NCBI RefSeq assembly: GCF_011405515.1
Contig: NZ_AP022671.1
Location: 2,046,001 to 2,110,000, forward strand
Source: Nitrospira sp. KM1
Lineage (GTDB): Bacteria > Nitrospirota > Nitrospiria > Nitrospirales > Nitrospiraceae
Length of the DNA stretch: 64,000 nucleotides
Reading direction: 5' to 3'
In this document: piece by piece, positions 56,114 through 61,845 of the stretch
Numbering within the stretch: the stretch's first letter is position 1
Layout of the letters: each line of letters begins with the position of its first letter
Position numbers and translations under genes: made by a program
Notes under the pieces: generated by a model
Databases searched by the model: none
What the model was told of the DNA's origin: nothing
Seen by the model: only the letters and a program-made list of their open reading frames with translations

Positions 56114-56143
56114 TTGACCCCTTGAACGATTTTCCTCTATGAT
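56114..56143 (+). promoter_or_regulatory. Sigma-70 promoter of the exporter operon
   Basis: TTGACC (56114-56119) and TATGAT (56138-56143) are 18 bases apart. Transcription would start near 56150, about 33 bases before the GTG start of the membrane fusion protein. It lies in the 185-base divergent gap between purE and the exporter operon. Confidence 0.55.
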
Positions 56144-56182
56144 GGGACTACTCGAAATTGGTCTTCATCCGGGAGAGCCTCG

Positions 56183-57619
56183 GTGGCACGGCTGGGAGAA
56201 AGCCTCCGTCATAAATTCCAGTCGCTCGTCCAGCGTCCTTCAGGTCTGGACGAAATGGCCATGGATGATCTGGCCGTCTCGAATAAGCTCCAGGCCTGGG
56301 AAGCCGTTCAAATTCCCGAGCGTCTGAAGTTTTCCTCTAAGCTCGCCATTACCCTCATTCTATTGTTTCTGCTTATTCTGGCATTCGTGCCATGGACCCA
56401 GACTATTACCGTCACTGGACAGTTGTCTGCCTACACGCCGTTTGAACGTCCCCAAGACGTTGAAGCGCAGATCACGGGCCGTATCAAGAAATGGCATATC
56501 TTCGAAGGTGTTCGCGTCAAGCAGGGAGACCTGATTCTGGAGCTTGAAGATTATGATCCGAACTTCATGTCTCCGGACTTGTTATCGCTCTTGGAGCAGC
56601 GCAAACAAGCATTGACCGACACGCGGCGAGCTGCCATCGCCCGTGCGGCACAATTGGATAAACGTATCGGGGAAATGCAGAATCTTGTCAAAGCGGCCGT
56701 GCCATCGGCCCAAGCTCGGGTGATCGAAGCCGAGAACAAGGTGCGGGAGGCCTATCAAAAAGTCGAAGCGGCCAAAATCGCCGTCGCCACGGCCGAACTG
56801 AACGTCGATCGCCATAAGCAGTTGGCTGAGCAAGGTCTGGTTTCCCAACGCGAGCTGGAATTGACCATTCAATCGGCCATCGCCTCGAAAGCCGACCTGA
56901 CCGGCACACAAGCAAATTTAAAGGCCGCTGAACAAGGGATGAAAGCCTTGAGCTTCGGGCGGGAGCAGGTCAATGCGGAGGTTTTGCAACGATTGCTCGA
57001 TGCGGAAGCGGCTCGCGATGCGTCAATCGGAGAAGCGGCCAAGGCCACCGATCAGTTGGCGGACATCTCCCTGCGGATGTCCAATGCGGAGCAACGCCGC
57101 ATGGCCAGCCGTATTCTGGCTCCAATCGACGGCACGGTGGTGAAGATGTCCGAGACCGGTGCTGGGCATACCGTCAGACCGGGTGAGAAACTTGTCAGAC
57201 TGTCGCCCGCCAGCGCCGACAAAGCCATCGAAATGACCGCCGATGGCCTCGATGCGCCACTGCTGAACGTCGGACGAAAGGTCAGGATCCTTTTTTACGG
57301 CATACCAGCCATCCCTCTTCCTGCCTGGCCATCTATCATGGCGGGTACATATGGAGGGGTCATCAAGGTCATCGATCAGGTCGACGATGGAAAAGGGAAT
57401 TTCAGATTTTGGGTGGTCCCCGACCTCGAAGACCGTCCATGGCCGCCGCAGGAACATGTCCGTCAGGGGACGAAAGCCATGGGATGGGTCATTTTGAACC
57501 GTGTCCCGCTCTGGTATGAACTCTGGCGACGATTCAATTTGTTCCCGCCGGATTATCAGGAACGGCCGCCGAGTTTAATCGATACCCTCTTGCCAAAAGC
57601 GGGCAGAGGTGCCAAATAA
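56183..57619 (+). CDS. HlyD-type membrane fusion protein
   Basis: Membrane fusion proteins bridge inner-membrane transporters to TolC-type ducts. The 478-residue product has a cytoplasmic start (about 50 residues), one membrane helix (about 52-72), split lipoyl half-motifs (ITGRIKKWHIFEGVRVKQGD and RILAPIDGTVVKMSETGAGH), a long coiled-coil hairpin between them (about 130-300) and a beta-barrel C-terminus. The GTG start has GGGAGAG upstream. It heads an operon with the TolC-like and degenerate ABC proteins. Confidence 0.88.
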   Translation: MARLGESLRHKFQSLVQRPSGLDEMAMDDLAVSNKLQAWEAVQIPERLKFSSKLAITLILLFLLILAFVPWTQTITVTGQLSAYTPFERPQDVEAQITGRIKKWHIFEGVRVKQGDLILELEDYDPNFMSPDLLSLLEQRKQALTDTRRAAIARAAQLDKRIGEMQNLVKAAVPSAQARVIEAENKVREAYQKVEAAKIAVATAELNVDRHKQLAEQGLVSQRELELTIQSAIASKADLTGTQANLKAAEQGMKALSFGREQVNAEVLQRLLDAEAARDASIGEAAKATDQLADISLRMSNAEQRRMASRILAPIDGTVVKMSETGAGHTVRPGEKLVRLSPASADKAIEMTADGLDAPLLNVGRKVRILFYGIPAIPLPAWPSIMAGTYGGVIKVIDQVDDGKGNFRFWVVPDLEDRPWPPQEHVRQGTKAMGWVILNRVPLWYELWRRFNLFPPDYQERPPSLIDTLLPKAGRGAK

Positions 57620-57734
57620 GCATTCGCTCCGCTCTAAGGGCAAACTGCTGGTCCGATTCACGCAGACCCCGTTTGTATTTCCCGTCCGCCTAACTAACGG
57701 CATCAGATTGCCGTGAGAAGGAAAGGAGCTTTTC

Positions 57735-59243
57735 ATGAATCCGCGTCGAATCCCCTTGAATCCATGCCATACATTCTGCATCGCAGTGCTTGTTGCTTCG
57801 ATCACACCGGGTATCGGCTGGGCAGCTCCGGCCGAATCTCCGAAAACCAAATCTCTCCCGCCCATTCCGCTGAGTGTGGACGAACTGCACGCATGGATCG
57901 ACCGTGCGCATCCTCTGTTGAAAGGAGCGGGCACGGAAAAGGTGATGGCGCGCGGGAGAATGCTGAAGGCCCTTGGGGCGTTCGAACCAACCGTGGTCAA
58001 CGATACGGAGATTGAACGCTTCATTTCAAGCTCAAACCCTGAGAAAGGAACGCAAACCGCCGGATTCAATGACACCCTCGTCGAGGCACGCCATCCTTGG
58101 GGCTTCCGCGGCAGTGCCGGTATTCGTGAAGTCATCAACGGTCCAGCCAGAATTCCGGACCTCAGTTTCAACAACGGCAACAGTCAAGTCCTGCTTGGAG
58201 GGGTGTTTCCGCTCCTCAAAGGCCTGATGGTCAATCCGGAGAATGCCGAGCTTCAGCGATCTGAGCTTGCAGATCCACGGGCTGACATTCGCATCGCCCA
58301 GACCAGACAGGACCTGTTCCTCGCCGCCGCCTCCCAATTCTGGGACTGGGTCGCAGCCGCAAAATTTTTGGAAGTGCAGCGGAAGGCCGTCGGAATCGCC
58401 GAAGACCGCTCTAAGCAGGTCGAAGGACGTGCGAAGGCTGGAGCCGTCGCGCCGCTGGATGTCGTGGAAGCCAACCAGGAAGTCCAACGCCGGCGCGAAG
58501 TCGCGATCGCGGCACAACGATTCCTCGAACAGGAACAGTTGAAATTATCGATGTTCATGTGGGAGCGCAACGTTCCCGTCAGTCCCCCGCTTGAACGCGT
58601 ACCGGAATTTCCCTCGCAAATGCTGATTCCCACCGCCGATGTCGTACAGGCTGACAAGATTCAGGCACGGTCCGGTCGCCCCGAGGTCAGGGAAATCGAA
58701 ATCGAAGCCAAAATCAACAACATCGACCTGGAATTGGCCAAGAATAACCTGCTGCCCAGCCTGGATGCAGAAGCCGCGCCAGCCCGCGTCCCGGAGAAAT
58801 TTGTGCTGGGATTGGGCTATCGCTTCGGTCTTGAGCTTCGGATTCCGATTCTGCAACGGAGAGGGCGCGGCGAAGTCCTGGAAGCCCAGGGCAAGGCGGA
58901 CCGGTTCGTCCTGACACAAAAATTCCGTGAGCAACAGGTTGTCGTGGATGTCGACAATGCCCTCTCAGCGATCGAACGGGCGAAAGAACGCATCGCAGCC
59001 GCCGTGGAATCGCTTCGCCTTGCCAAGACTCTGGAAGAAGGGGAACGCTTCCGCTTTGGGCTGGGAGCCACGAGTGTGTTATTCGTGAACCTGCGGGAAC
59101 GTAACTCAGTTGAGTCGGAAGCTCAGGTCATCAGGGCCAAGGCGGACTACCAGAAAGCCGTGGCGCTGTATCAATGGTCCATCGGTGCCTGGGGCAAAGC
59201 AATGCCATCGGCCGTTCCAGTCATTTACCATGCCCGCGATTGA
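57735..59243 (+). CDS. TolC-like outer membrane efflux protein
   Basis: TolC-family proteins form the outer-membrane duct of export systems. The 502-residue product has a signal peptide (cleavage near GWA-APA) and the repeated helical pattern of the family, for example KAGAVAPLDVVEANQEVQRR and LGATSVLFVNLRERNSVESE, with coiled-coil segments in both halves. AAGGAG precedes the ATG. It lies between the fusion protein and the ABC-type gene. Confidence 0.87.
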   Translation: MNPRRIPLNPCHTFCIAVLVASITPGIGWAAPAESPKTKSLPPIPLSVDELHAWIDRAHPLLKGAGTEKVMARGRMLKALGAFEPTVVNDTEIERFISSSNPEKGTQTAGFNDTLVEARHPWGFRGSAGIREVINGPARIPDLSFNNGNSQVLLGGVFPLLKGLMVNPENAELQRSELADPRADIRIAQTRQDLFLAAASQFWDWVAAAKFLEVQRKAVGIAEDRSKQVEGRAKAGAVAPLDVVEANQEVQRRREVAIAAQRFLEQEQLKLSMFMWERNVPVSPPLERVPEFPSQMLIPTADVVQADKIQARSGRPEVREIEIEAKINNIDLELAKNNLLPSLDAEAAPARVPEKFVLGLGYRFGLELRIPILQRRGRGEVLEAQGKADRFVLTQKFREQQVVVDVDNALSAIERAKERIAAAVESLRLAKTLEEGERFRFGLGATSVLFVNLRERNSVESEAQVIRAKADYQKAVALYQWSIGAWGKAMPSAVPVIYHARD

Positions 59244-59356
59244 TCGTGGTGGAGAAATTGGCTTTTCCATCAATGTTTTGCTAGCGTGTGGTCGAACCGG
59301 CGACTGGTGATCCAGTCCTGACTTCCTGTCTGTCGGATGCTTGACGGCAGACGAGT

Positions 59357-61045
59357 ATGCGGACTGCGATAGTTGTAACTATGGATCGAAGCTCCGATCA
59401 ACCCAACCTGTTTCAATCCGTCATTGGGTATTTGGGGATCATCTTTCGTCTCGAGCGGCGGTTGCTCGCCCTGGTTTTTTCGTATTCGCTCGCCATCGGG
59501 CTATTCTCACTCATCGTCCCGTTGACCGTACAGGAGTTGGTGAACACCTTTGCCTTTGCCATCCAACCGGTCACGATAGCCACCCTCGCCGGAGTCATGG
59601 TCGCCGCGCTGTTGTTTGTAGGAGCGTTTAAGGCGCTCCAGTACTACGCCGTGGAGGTCCTCGAACGACGCTTCTTCGCGCGGGTGGCCATTGGTATGGC
59701 CCAGCAACTGCCTCAGCTGCAGATACTCGGGTTCAAACCGCGCTATGCCAACTATTTCGTAGAAACCGTGTTCATGCAGCGAGCGCTCTCCGTTCTCCTC
59801 GTCGAATTGATCAACGTCGTGGTCGGCGGAACGGTCGGCATGGGCATTTTGGTGTTTTATCACCCGTATTTTTTGTTGTATGGGGCGCTCCTGCTCGCCG
59901 GGTTTAACGTCGTATTTTTCCTCATGTCGCATGGAGGCCTGAAGGCCACCATCGCCATGTCTCACGCCAAATACGATACGTTGCATTGGATGCAGGAACT
60001 CTCGTTCAATCTGCTGCACTTCAAAGCGACGGACAGCCAATCTCTCGTGATGCAGCGGACCGACGAATTGGTCAGTCGCTATATCCACTCGCGCCAAACG
60101 CGTTTCAGTATCCTGATCCGCCAATACTTGGGCTCCGTAGGATGGCAGGCGGTTGCTCAAAGCGGACTCATTGCGACAGCCGGATGGCTGGTCTCGATTG
60201 GACAATTGACCCTCGGACAACTCGTGGCCGCCGAAGTCGTGGTCAGTGGTCTCCTCAACAGCTTTGACGGGGTCGTCAAACGGATGGGCCATATCTACTA
60301 TTTCCTGACGGGACTGCGCGAGCTGGATTTTCTCTTCTCGCTCCCCAAGGATCACGAATCCGCCGAATTGGCGGTCCCGCTGCCAGATCCTACGATCCAT
60401 GGCATCCGCGTCACCTGCCGAGATTTGTCCTTACAGCATTCCGGCATGACTCCCCTCTTCCGTCAGTTCAACCTCGAAGTGACTCCGGGTGAAAAGATCG
60501 GCGTCTACGCGAACACGACCGCCGCGAAGACCGCCCTAGCGAGGGTCCTGTCCGGCCTCGAAACGCCCACTGGCGGCGTCATCCGCTACAACGGCGTGGA
60601 CCTCCGGCACCTCGACCGAAACGCCATTAACCGCTGCCGCGGATTCATGATCGACTCGCAGTTGACGTTGTTCGAAGGAACCATCGAGGACAATATTCTG
60701 TTAGGACGAAGTTATGTGCCGTACAGTGACGTGCGGTGGGCACTTAGATTTGTGGAACTCGAAGAGGATGTCGATGCTCTCCCCCAAGGCATGAAGACCA
60801 ACGTCAGGTCGCCGGGCAAAGTCCTGGGCCCGTCACACGTGATGCGAATTCTCTTGGCACGCGCGATTTTGAGCCGTCCACAGATTCTCGTTTTTGATGG
60901 CATCCTTCACAACCTGCAACCGAACTTGCGAGAAACCATTATCCGTCGTCTCTGTTCAAAAGACGAGCCTTGGTCGGTGATTTTCGTATCCAACGATCCC
61001 AATTTGACCCCACATGTGGATCGTCGAGTCATCTTGGAGTCATGA
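59357..61045 (+). CDS. ABC exporter with degenerate nucleotide-binding domain
   Basis: The 562-residue protein has the six-helix exporter membrane domain (about 30-320) and a C-terminal nucleotide-binding domain (about 350-560). No peptidase domain is present. The Walker A region is ANTTAAKT (385-392): all three loop Gly are replaced, but Lys391 and Thr392 remain. The signature is LGPSH (490-494), not LSGGQ. Walker B keeps Asp514, but the catalytic Glu is Gly515. The Q-loop Gln is Ser434 and the H-loop His is Asn546. The reading frame is intact, so the protein is probably made but unlikely to hydrolyse ATP by itself. Confidence 0.85.
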   Translation: MRTAIVVTMDRSSDQPNLFQSVIGYLGIIFRLERRLLALVFSYSLAIGLFSLIVPLTVQELVNTFAFAIQPVTIATLAGVMVAALLFVGAFKALQYYAVEVLERRFFARVAIGMAQQLPQLQILGFKPRYANYFVETVFMQRALSVLLVELINVVVGGTVGMGILVFYHPYFLLYGALLLAGFNVVFFLMSHGGLKATIAMSHAKYDTLHWMQELSFNLLHFKATDSQSLVMQRTDELVSRYIHSRQTRFSILIRQYLGSVGWQAVAQSGLIATAGWLVSIGQLTLGQLVAAEVVVSGLLNSFDGVVKRMGHIYYFLTGLRELDFLFSLPKDHESAELAVPLPDPTIHGIRVTCRDLSLQHSGMTPLFRQFNLEVTPGEKIGVYANTTAAKTALARVLSGLETPTGGVIRYNGVDLRHLDRNAINRCRGFMIDSQLTLFEGTIEDNILLGRSYVPYSDVRWALRFVELEEDVDALPQGMKTNVRSPGKVLGPSHVMRILLARAILSRPQILVFDGILHNLQPNLRETIIRRLCSKDEPWSVIFVSNDPNLTPHVDRRVILES

Positions 61046-61845
61046 GGAACCTCATGCGGTTCGTCCGCTGGTTCGCCACATTTAGGCCCAGCCCATCCCA
61101 GCTGCTCGTCAGCTTCCTTATTGCGTTGCTTGGCTGGCTCAGCGCTCAGGCACTCAGCCGCGTGGATCAGGACCTCCGCATCATGTACACGGAATACACG
61201 CTCGGGGCGACGGATCTCGCCCACATTTCGGCCGATGTCATTCGATACCGGAATACCATTATCCGCGCGCTGGAAGCGCACAGCGAGAAGGAATTCGAGC
61301 GGATCACCGACTCGTTACCGACACAACGCGCCCGTATTCAACAGGCCGTCGACCGGTATGCGGCGGCGGGCCTCCGCGTATCACGGAGCGGCCGCAGCGA
61401 ACCTGAAGATATCGAATCCGTGCGACGGAGCCTTGATCAATACTTTTCCGTGGCCGGCACAACCGTCCAGTTGCTGACGCAGGAATGGACGGCAGCGTCT
61501 CCCTCTGAACGCGAATCCCTTCGGCGCAGAGCCGAAGAACATGCTTCGGACAATGGGGGGCCGAAGATGATTCAGGTGAGCTTGGCGCTGGATCGCCTGG
61601 TGGATACTGTGGCCGATGTGGCCAAGGACATGCGAGATGAAGGGACCAAGGCGATTCAGGACACCAGCATTATGTTGGTTGTTGGAAGTTTTTTTATCGC
61701 GTTCTTGAATCTGTTCTTTACGAGAAAAACCAGCGACCGGTATCCGGCCTCGGACGCTCCCCGCAGCTCGCACACAGCGAGTCTCCCATCACCCGTCTCA
61801 CTCGAACTGCCTCACGATCAGAATCCGGCGTTGAAGGCCGAATAG
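61042..61845 (+). CDS. Two-TM four-helix-bundle sensor protein without signalling domain
   Basis: The 267-residue product has two membrane helices (about 18-38 and 211-232) enclosing a helical periplasmic domain that resembles the 4HB ligand-binding domain of chemoreceptors (MYTEYTLGATDLAHISADVI, then R-Y-R-N-T-I). The C-terminus is a short Pro/Ser-rich cytoplasmic tail. HAMP, methyl-accepting and kinase domains are all absent. The ATG overlaps the ABC gene stop by four bases, so it is probably part of the exporter system. Earlier in-frame starts lie inside the ABC gene and are unlikely. Confidence 0.7.
   Translation: MRNLMRFVRWFATFRPSPSQLLVSFLIALLGWLSAQALSRVDQDLRIMYTEYTLGATDLAHISADVIRYRNTIIRALEAHSEKEFERITDSLPTQRARIQQAVDRYAAAGLRVSRSGRSEPEDIESVRRSLDQYFSVAGTTVQLLTQEWTAASPSERESLRRRAEEHASDNGGPKMIQVSLALDRLVDTVADVAKDMRDEGTKAIQDTSIMLVVGSFFIAFLNLFFTRKTSDRYPASDAPRSSHTASLPSPVSLELPHDQNPALKAE

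Follow-up and report, generated by a model that had tools for sequence, protein, structure and literature searches.

The window considered here, a stretch of 64,000 nucleotides from the genome of Nitrospira sp. KM1 (one contig, 4.5 Mb), carries four consecutive genes on the same strand that encode a HlyD-type periplasmic adaptor, a TolC-type outer membrane duct, a full-length ATP-binding cassette (ABC) exporter, and a four-helix-bundle (4HB) protein with two transmembrane (TM) helices. The ABC protein combines the predicted fold of a complete exporter, a transmembrane domain (TMD) followed by a nucleotide-binding domain (NBD), with the loss of nearly all residues of the ATPase site. The loss dates far back, is conserved, and persists under purifying selection. 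The operon may represent a cross-phylum family of tripartite exporters in which the ABC unit bears an NBD of the pseudo-ATPase type and which work without ATP hydrolysis, a reading given slightly less than even weight.

Loss of catalytic residues in the ABC protein

ABC exporters are defined by ATP-driven transport. At 12 canonical catalytic positions, each of 12 control exporters carries 11–12 of the expected residues, while the window protein keeps three, K391, T392, and D514. The gene and the altered motifs are as follows.

59357..61045, +, ABC exporter half-transporter with degenerate NBD (562 aa, ABC_tran E 3e-9)
60509..60532, +, Walker A position, ANTTAAKT (residues 385–392), three glycines lost, Lys391 and Thr392 kept
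60824..60838, +, signature position, LGPSH (residues 490–494) in place of LSGGQ
60896..60901, +, Walker B, ending in FDG, with Asp514 kept and Gly515 in place of the catalytic Glu (homologues: Gly 127/129, Ser 2/129)
60992..60994, +, H-loop position, His replaced by Asn546, followed by the invariant Asp547 (His in 0/129 homologues)

A preliminary description made from the sequence alone had listed Walker A, the Q-loop, the signature, the catalytic Glu, and the H-loop as altered, with only Lys391, Thr392, and Asp514 left. Alignment bears out this reading of the motifs except at the Q-loop, where the claim holds in part: counting from the GTI motif, Ser434 stands where the Gln is expected, but a Gln is present, displaced by one residue to a later position.

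The AlphaFold2 model (predicted local distance difference test score 75) is a complete ABC exporter close to TAP, HlyB, PCAT1, TmrAB, and PrtD. It aligns with HlyB over 532 residues (Z 26.3, root-mean-square deviation 3.1) and with PrtD at Z 25.6, and its best Foldseek match is TmrAB. As modeled, a six-TM exporter TMD precedes an NBD fold, the arrangement that characterizes the ABC exporter superfamily (type IV fold). The segment LFEGTI.ENI that follows the Q-loop is kept, consistent with an intact contact between NBD and TMD.

Conservation of the loss within the Nitrospirota

The ABC protein is present in 40 of the 61 relatives searched. Across the phylum, 77 of 296 genomes have it, which divide into 69 from the window's own family and eight from f3, a second family of the same order. 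A scan of GTDB contigs yielded 80 more loci, nearly all labeled Nitrospira or Nitrospirae and in part from the same genomes; the closest relatives by ABC protein are Nitrospira species. These proteins form a discrete family, with full-length profile matches at E 1e-233 or better, and the nearest other ABC exporter in the KM1 genome is only 23% identical and has its own HlyD.

Among 129 distinct Nitrospirota sequences aligned, each retains between one and five of the 12 canonical residues, so that an intact ATPase site (Walker A/B, signature, Glu, His) is found neither in the window protein nor in any of these homologues. The catalytic Glu and the H-loop His are each present in 0/129, the latter position being held by Asn, Thr, Ser, or Ile. 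Other residues are fixed: H518 and D547 are invariant (129/129) and G515 and P548 nearly so. Retention is intermediate for K391 (114/129), T392 (103/129), and D514 (101/129), and the last Walker A glycine is kept in several members (GKTT). For the NBD, the ratio of nonsynonymous to synonymous substitution rates (dN/dS) is near 0.04 both in first copies and in the group of loci with three TolC genes, and 0.075 in second copies; in every group it roughly matches the TMD value or lies under it. Orthologues with an intact Walker A and Glu, which according to the preliminary description would have pointed to decay in this strain, were sought among these homologues, and none has the Glu. The proposal that this is not an ordinary ATP-driven exporter thus gains strength from a loss that is family-wide.

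Relatives in other phyla

Outside the Nitrospirota, 72,556 plasmid records were searched. The 22 records that match the ABC protein best (E <= 1e-24) all come from Bacteroidota or Sphingomonadales, and the 11 relatives read in detail are all encoded in ABC-HlyD-TolC operons and all have degenerate NBDs, each in a different way. Genera with such relatives include Persicobacter, Aureibacter, Riemerella, Novosphingobium, Sphingobium, Sphingomonas, and Croceicoccus; in Novosphingobium aromaticivorans DSM 12444 the three genes (SARO_RS19820-19810) lie on plasmid pNL2. The Persicobacter protein reads GYNNSGKNT/LSSST/NDT at the motif positions, and the Walker lysine has been lost in the Sphingomonadales relatives as well as in those from f3.

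To keep NBD decay from shaping the grouping, a maximum-likelihood tree was built from TMD sequences only, with 12 intact exporters as outgroup (five from the KM1 genome itself). All 29 of 29 degenerate proteins lie on one side of a branch supported at 100/99, and removal of seven rows, mostly long branches, gives 100/100; the branching among the three phylum groups was not resolved by constraint tests on the trimmed tree. Five TMD residues, Q59, G161, H169, Y242, and Q256, are identical in 29/29 degenerate proteins and mostly different in intact exporters. The window HlyD matches the HlyD proteins of these relatives at E 1e-32 to 1e-77, vs. E 0.001 or worse for adaptors of canonical systems, and its TolC likewise finds specific relatives at E 1e-16 to 1e-28. 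Because adaptors and ducts are also specific relatives, the three genes have been passed on or transferred as one module. Near the operon's Sphingobium relative, an IteA-like (anti-phage) AAA ATPase is encoded beside an S8-family serine peptidase (L189, 2145–5595).

Layout of the operon and its variants

The remaining parts of the window operon are the following.

56114..56143, +, sigma-70-like promoter match upstream of the operon, TTGACC-18-TATGAT, weak (10/12 matches)
56183..57619, +, HlyD-type periplasmic adaptor (membrane fusion protein; 478 aa, GTG start, HlyD_3 E 3e-9)
57735..59243, +, TolC-type outer membrane factor (502 aa, OEP E 5e-32)
61042..61845, +, lone periplasmic 4HB protein with two TM helices (267 aa, 4HB_MCP_1 E 9e-9)

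Open reading frames (ORFs), Pfam family matches, and coordinates agree with the four-gene order proposed earlier and with the ATGA overlap of the ABC and 4HB genes at 61042–61045. The further claim of one promoter fares less well: the 10/12 match is there, but three sigma-70-like sites were found where 2.3 are expected by chance, making it a chance-level consensus match, and gaps of 115 bases before tolC and 113 bases before the ABC gene leave room for further transcription starts ahead of both. The ABC protein perhaps starts at Met9 (59381), since most orthologues align from residue 10–15 only.

Within the Nitrospirota the main orders are HlyD-TolC-ABC-4HB (n = 32), HlyD-TolC-ABC-ABC-4HB (n = 20), and TolC-TolC-TolC-ABC-HlyD (TTTAH; n = 23), and HlyD orthologues accompany the degenerate ABC gene in 105 loci. 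One genome of the same family (G156) has a HlyD orthologue at 65% identity and no ABC match at E 1e-70. In the TTTAH loci that were drawn, the module lies in reverse orientation between the same flanking genes, with purE/purK and a histidine kinase on one side and pseudouridine synthase and agmatinase on the other, and has no 4HB gene. A metabolic tie to the adjoining polyamine genes (agmatinase, arginine decarboxylase) was considered and rejected; the association looks like plain synteny because agmatinase, purE/purK, and pseudouridine synthase also flank this differently arranged version. A LysR gene occurs in 22/23 TTTAH loci, and across all loci 21/29 LysR genes lie on the opposite strand within 400 bases. 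The TTTAH loci (e.g., L058, L108, L123) encode three TolC proteins in a row with a single ABC and a single HlyD protein, unusually many outer membrane ducts for one pump, and most of them have a divergent LysR regulator.

In the 20 tandem loci both ABC copies are degenerate where aligned, which disposes of the idea that the second copy is intact, and an intact ABC partner was not found in any operon read. A further 11 loci hold a lone degenerate ABC gene. Glycosyltransferases of the GT2 family and mannosyltransferases of the PMT type accompany the lone paralogues at L067, L068, L071, L072, and L078; each family recurs in five loci and was read in L067, L068, L071, and L072. These glycosyltransferase-linked paralogues are possibly ATP-independent flippases for a lipid-linked sugar. 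At L063, L066, and L070, a PAS histidine kinase and then a sigma-54 response regulator lie downstream of the lone gene.

The 4HB protein passes the curated cut-off of 4HB_MCP_1 (PF12729; 35.6 bits vs. 27), and its model is a long bundle of the chemoreceptor type, with weak structural matches. It has no HAMP, MCP signal, or kinase domain, and about 40 low-confidence residues follow its second TM helix. Foldseek matches to Vc1313 with bound D-Arg/D-Lys were too weak (best E 2e-3, 12% identity) to be used as ligand evidence. The gene is present in most HlyD-first loci; many loci (TTTAH, TolC-ABC-HlyD) and the relatives in other phyla are without it, so the system does not depend on this protein. 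Another lone 4HB_MCP_1 protein of KM1 (256 aa; L185, 8940–9710, within C1:1114000-1132000) is related to it and is encoded directly downstream of a 1527-aa molybdopterin oxidoreductase with a twin-arginine translocation (TAT) signal, fused to a 4Fe-4S dicluster domain; the larger protein looks like an alpha-beta fusion of the nitrite-oxidoreductase type.

A possible mechanism and its alternatives

In ABC dimers each ATP site is formed by Walker A/B and the Q- and H-loops of one NBD together with the signature of the other (PMC7756269). Loss of both halves in the same subunit would leave a homodimer without any ATP site, and an intact partner would be of limited help, since its composite site would also lack the signature. 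Since the operons offer no such partner either, transport here is unlikely to be powered by ATP hydrolysis. The favored mechanism, to which an even chance is assigned, is a tripartite conduit independent of ATP hydrolysis, with type I secretion architecture from inner membrane through periplasm to outer membrane. Its inner unit would be a dimer of the ABC-exporter fold with a pseudo-ATPase: the NBDs would persist as a rigid clamp, keeping the TMD dimer together by way of the conserved coupling segment LFEGTI.ENI, and the TMD would carry transport, opening upon substrate binding or through an ion gradient. The 4HB protein would be a periplasmic accessory, either a sensor of a small ligand or a prop of the adaptor ring. 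A small molecule or metabolite is a more likely cargo than an RTX-type protein, given the LysR neighbor and the lack of RTX cargo; a search for RTX-type cargo found at most one RTX nonapeptide per ORF in the Nitrospira loci.

Several observations weigh against this mechanism or the breadth of the proposed family. No energy source was found, the TMD having no obvious SbmA-like glutamate ladder; among its near-invariant acids, only those at positions 33 and 236 are specific to the family. In the Riemerella relative, Walker A and a Glu survive but not the signature, Walker B Asp, or His, and retention of K391/T392 in most Nitrospirota members makes regulatory nucleotide binding possible there. 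Long branches and a small number of intact outgroups limit the tree, the relatives beyond the Nitrospirota come from the plasmid collection only, and intact members may exist on chromosomes of other phyla. The small-molecule cargo is suggested by the type of regulator and the absence of cargo genes.

One alternative, gating by nucleotide, draws on the retention of K391, T392, and D514 and of GKTT in several members: the NBD would bind, and perhaps slowly hydrolyze, ATP by altered chemistry, binding alone closing the dimer and gating the channel. ATP binding alone is reported to suffice for translocation by TmrAB (PMC7756269). Against this, the protein has lost the Walker A glycines along with the Q-loop, signature, Glu, and His, and relatives in f3 and the Sphingomonadales lack the lysine, which makes nucleotide binding unlikely as the shared mechanism of the family; overall this alternative is judged unlikely. 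A scaffold or sensor complex, in which the exporter fold merely spans the envelope and the 4HB protein is the input, would account for a dead motor and a conserved sensor-type bundle in one operon, and some lone paralogues do adjoin a histidine kinase and a sigma-54 regulator. It is rather unlikely, because adaptor and outer membrane duct have been kept with the ABC protein across three phyla, the invariant polar residues of the TMD fit a conduit, and the 4HB gene is missing from many loci.

The degenerate protein could also pair with an intact ABC subunit encoded elsewhere, as in TmrAB and TM287/288, the complex still being driven by ATP. Heterodimeric exporters with one degenerate site are common (PMC7756269), TmrAB is the best structural match, and the genome encodes several intact half-transporters. 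Yet with Walker motifs and signature both lost the active partner's site would be without a signature, the operons read and the aligned second copies of the 20 tandem loci offer no intact ABC, the single-ABC layout recurs in two other phyla, and the nearest exporter of the genome, at 23% identity, has a HlyD of its own. The earlier suggestion of a second ATPase is weakened accordingly, and such pairing is considered distinctly unlikely. That this strain carries a decaying ordinary type I secretion system, as the alteration of every catalytic motif in one protein might suggest, has next to no probability and was rejected: the loss is common to every homologue, the NBD evolves at a dN/dS of about 0.04, and gene order and position are conserved.

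Novelty and implications

Exporter fold and tripartite layout are both known; what appears to be new is that a cross-phylum family consistently lacks the motor, and no published account of such a family was found in the open-access literature. If the hydrolysis-independent conduit is correct, the exporter fold would be able to function, or to be of use, in the absence of its motor while the NBD remains under strong selection, and energy coupling would be of a kind not described for type I-like systems. A role of the NBD dimer apart from hydrolysis would become testable. The relatives are at present mostly labeled "ABC transporter ATP-binding protein", an annotation that overstates ATP-driven export.

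Comparison with known systems

Type I secretion systems (T1SS; HlyB-HlyD-TolC, PrtD, and LssB types) share with the window operon the three-part arrangement, ABC exporter, HlyD-type adaptor, and TolC-type duct being encoded together, and the exporter fold over the whole length of the ABC protein. They differ in that the window NBD has 3/12 canonical residues, a C39-like domain is absent, no RTX cargo gene lies nearby, and adaptor and duct are only distantly related to canonical ones; the NCBIfam T1SS cut-offs are missed by all three proteins (119.6 bits vs. 693 for LssB, 74 vs. 209 for type_I_hlyD, and 35 vs. 225 for type_I_sec_TolC). Heterodimeric exporters (TmrAB, TM287/288, BmrCD, TAP) are alike in fold and in their altered Walker B Glu and H-loop, but one of their sites stays canonical, whereas here Walker motifs and signature are lost in one subunit that has no partner in the operon.

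Tripartite systems without a working ABC ATPase are also known. In EmrAB-TolC, a HlyD-like adaptor and TolC work with a pump of the major facilitator superfamily (MFS) rather than an ABC motor (PMC8277102), so that the inner membrane unit is an MFS protein and not, as here, an ABC-exporter fold. T1SS-type parts are also found in secondary SecA_DEAD loci with HlyD/OEP, reported from one Nitrospirae genome as well (Kamneva, 2015, PMC4452313); they carry SecA_DEAD and M50 proteins and no ABC homologue, while the window operon has an ABC protein. A SecA-linked T1SS identity was rejected on this ground, and no Pfam-scanned neighbor is SecA-like. SbmA has an ABC-exporter-like TMD that is proton-driven and without an NBD (PMC13316013). 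SbmA/BacA (SbmA-like peptide transporters, SLiPT) and the degenerate family would have in common an exporter-like TMD free of ATP hydrolysis. SbmA lacks NBD, coupling helices, adaptor, and duct, and imports its substrates; the degenerate family, with no evident glutamate ladder, keeps a full-length pseudo-NBD whose complete fold is present in the model. Proton-driven SbmA-like transporters are thought to have shed their NBD entirely on the way from ABC transporters, and the family may offer a parallel to that transition.

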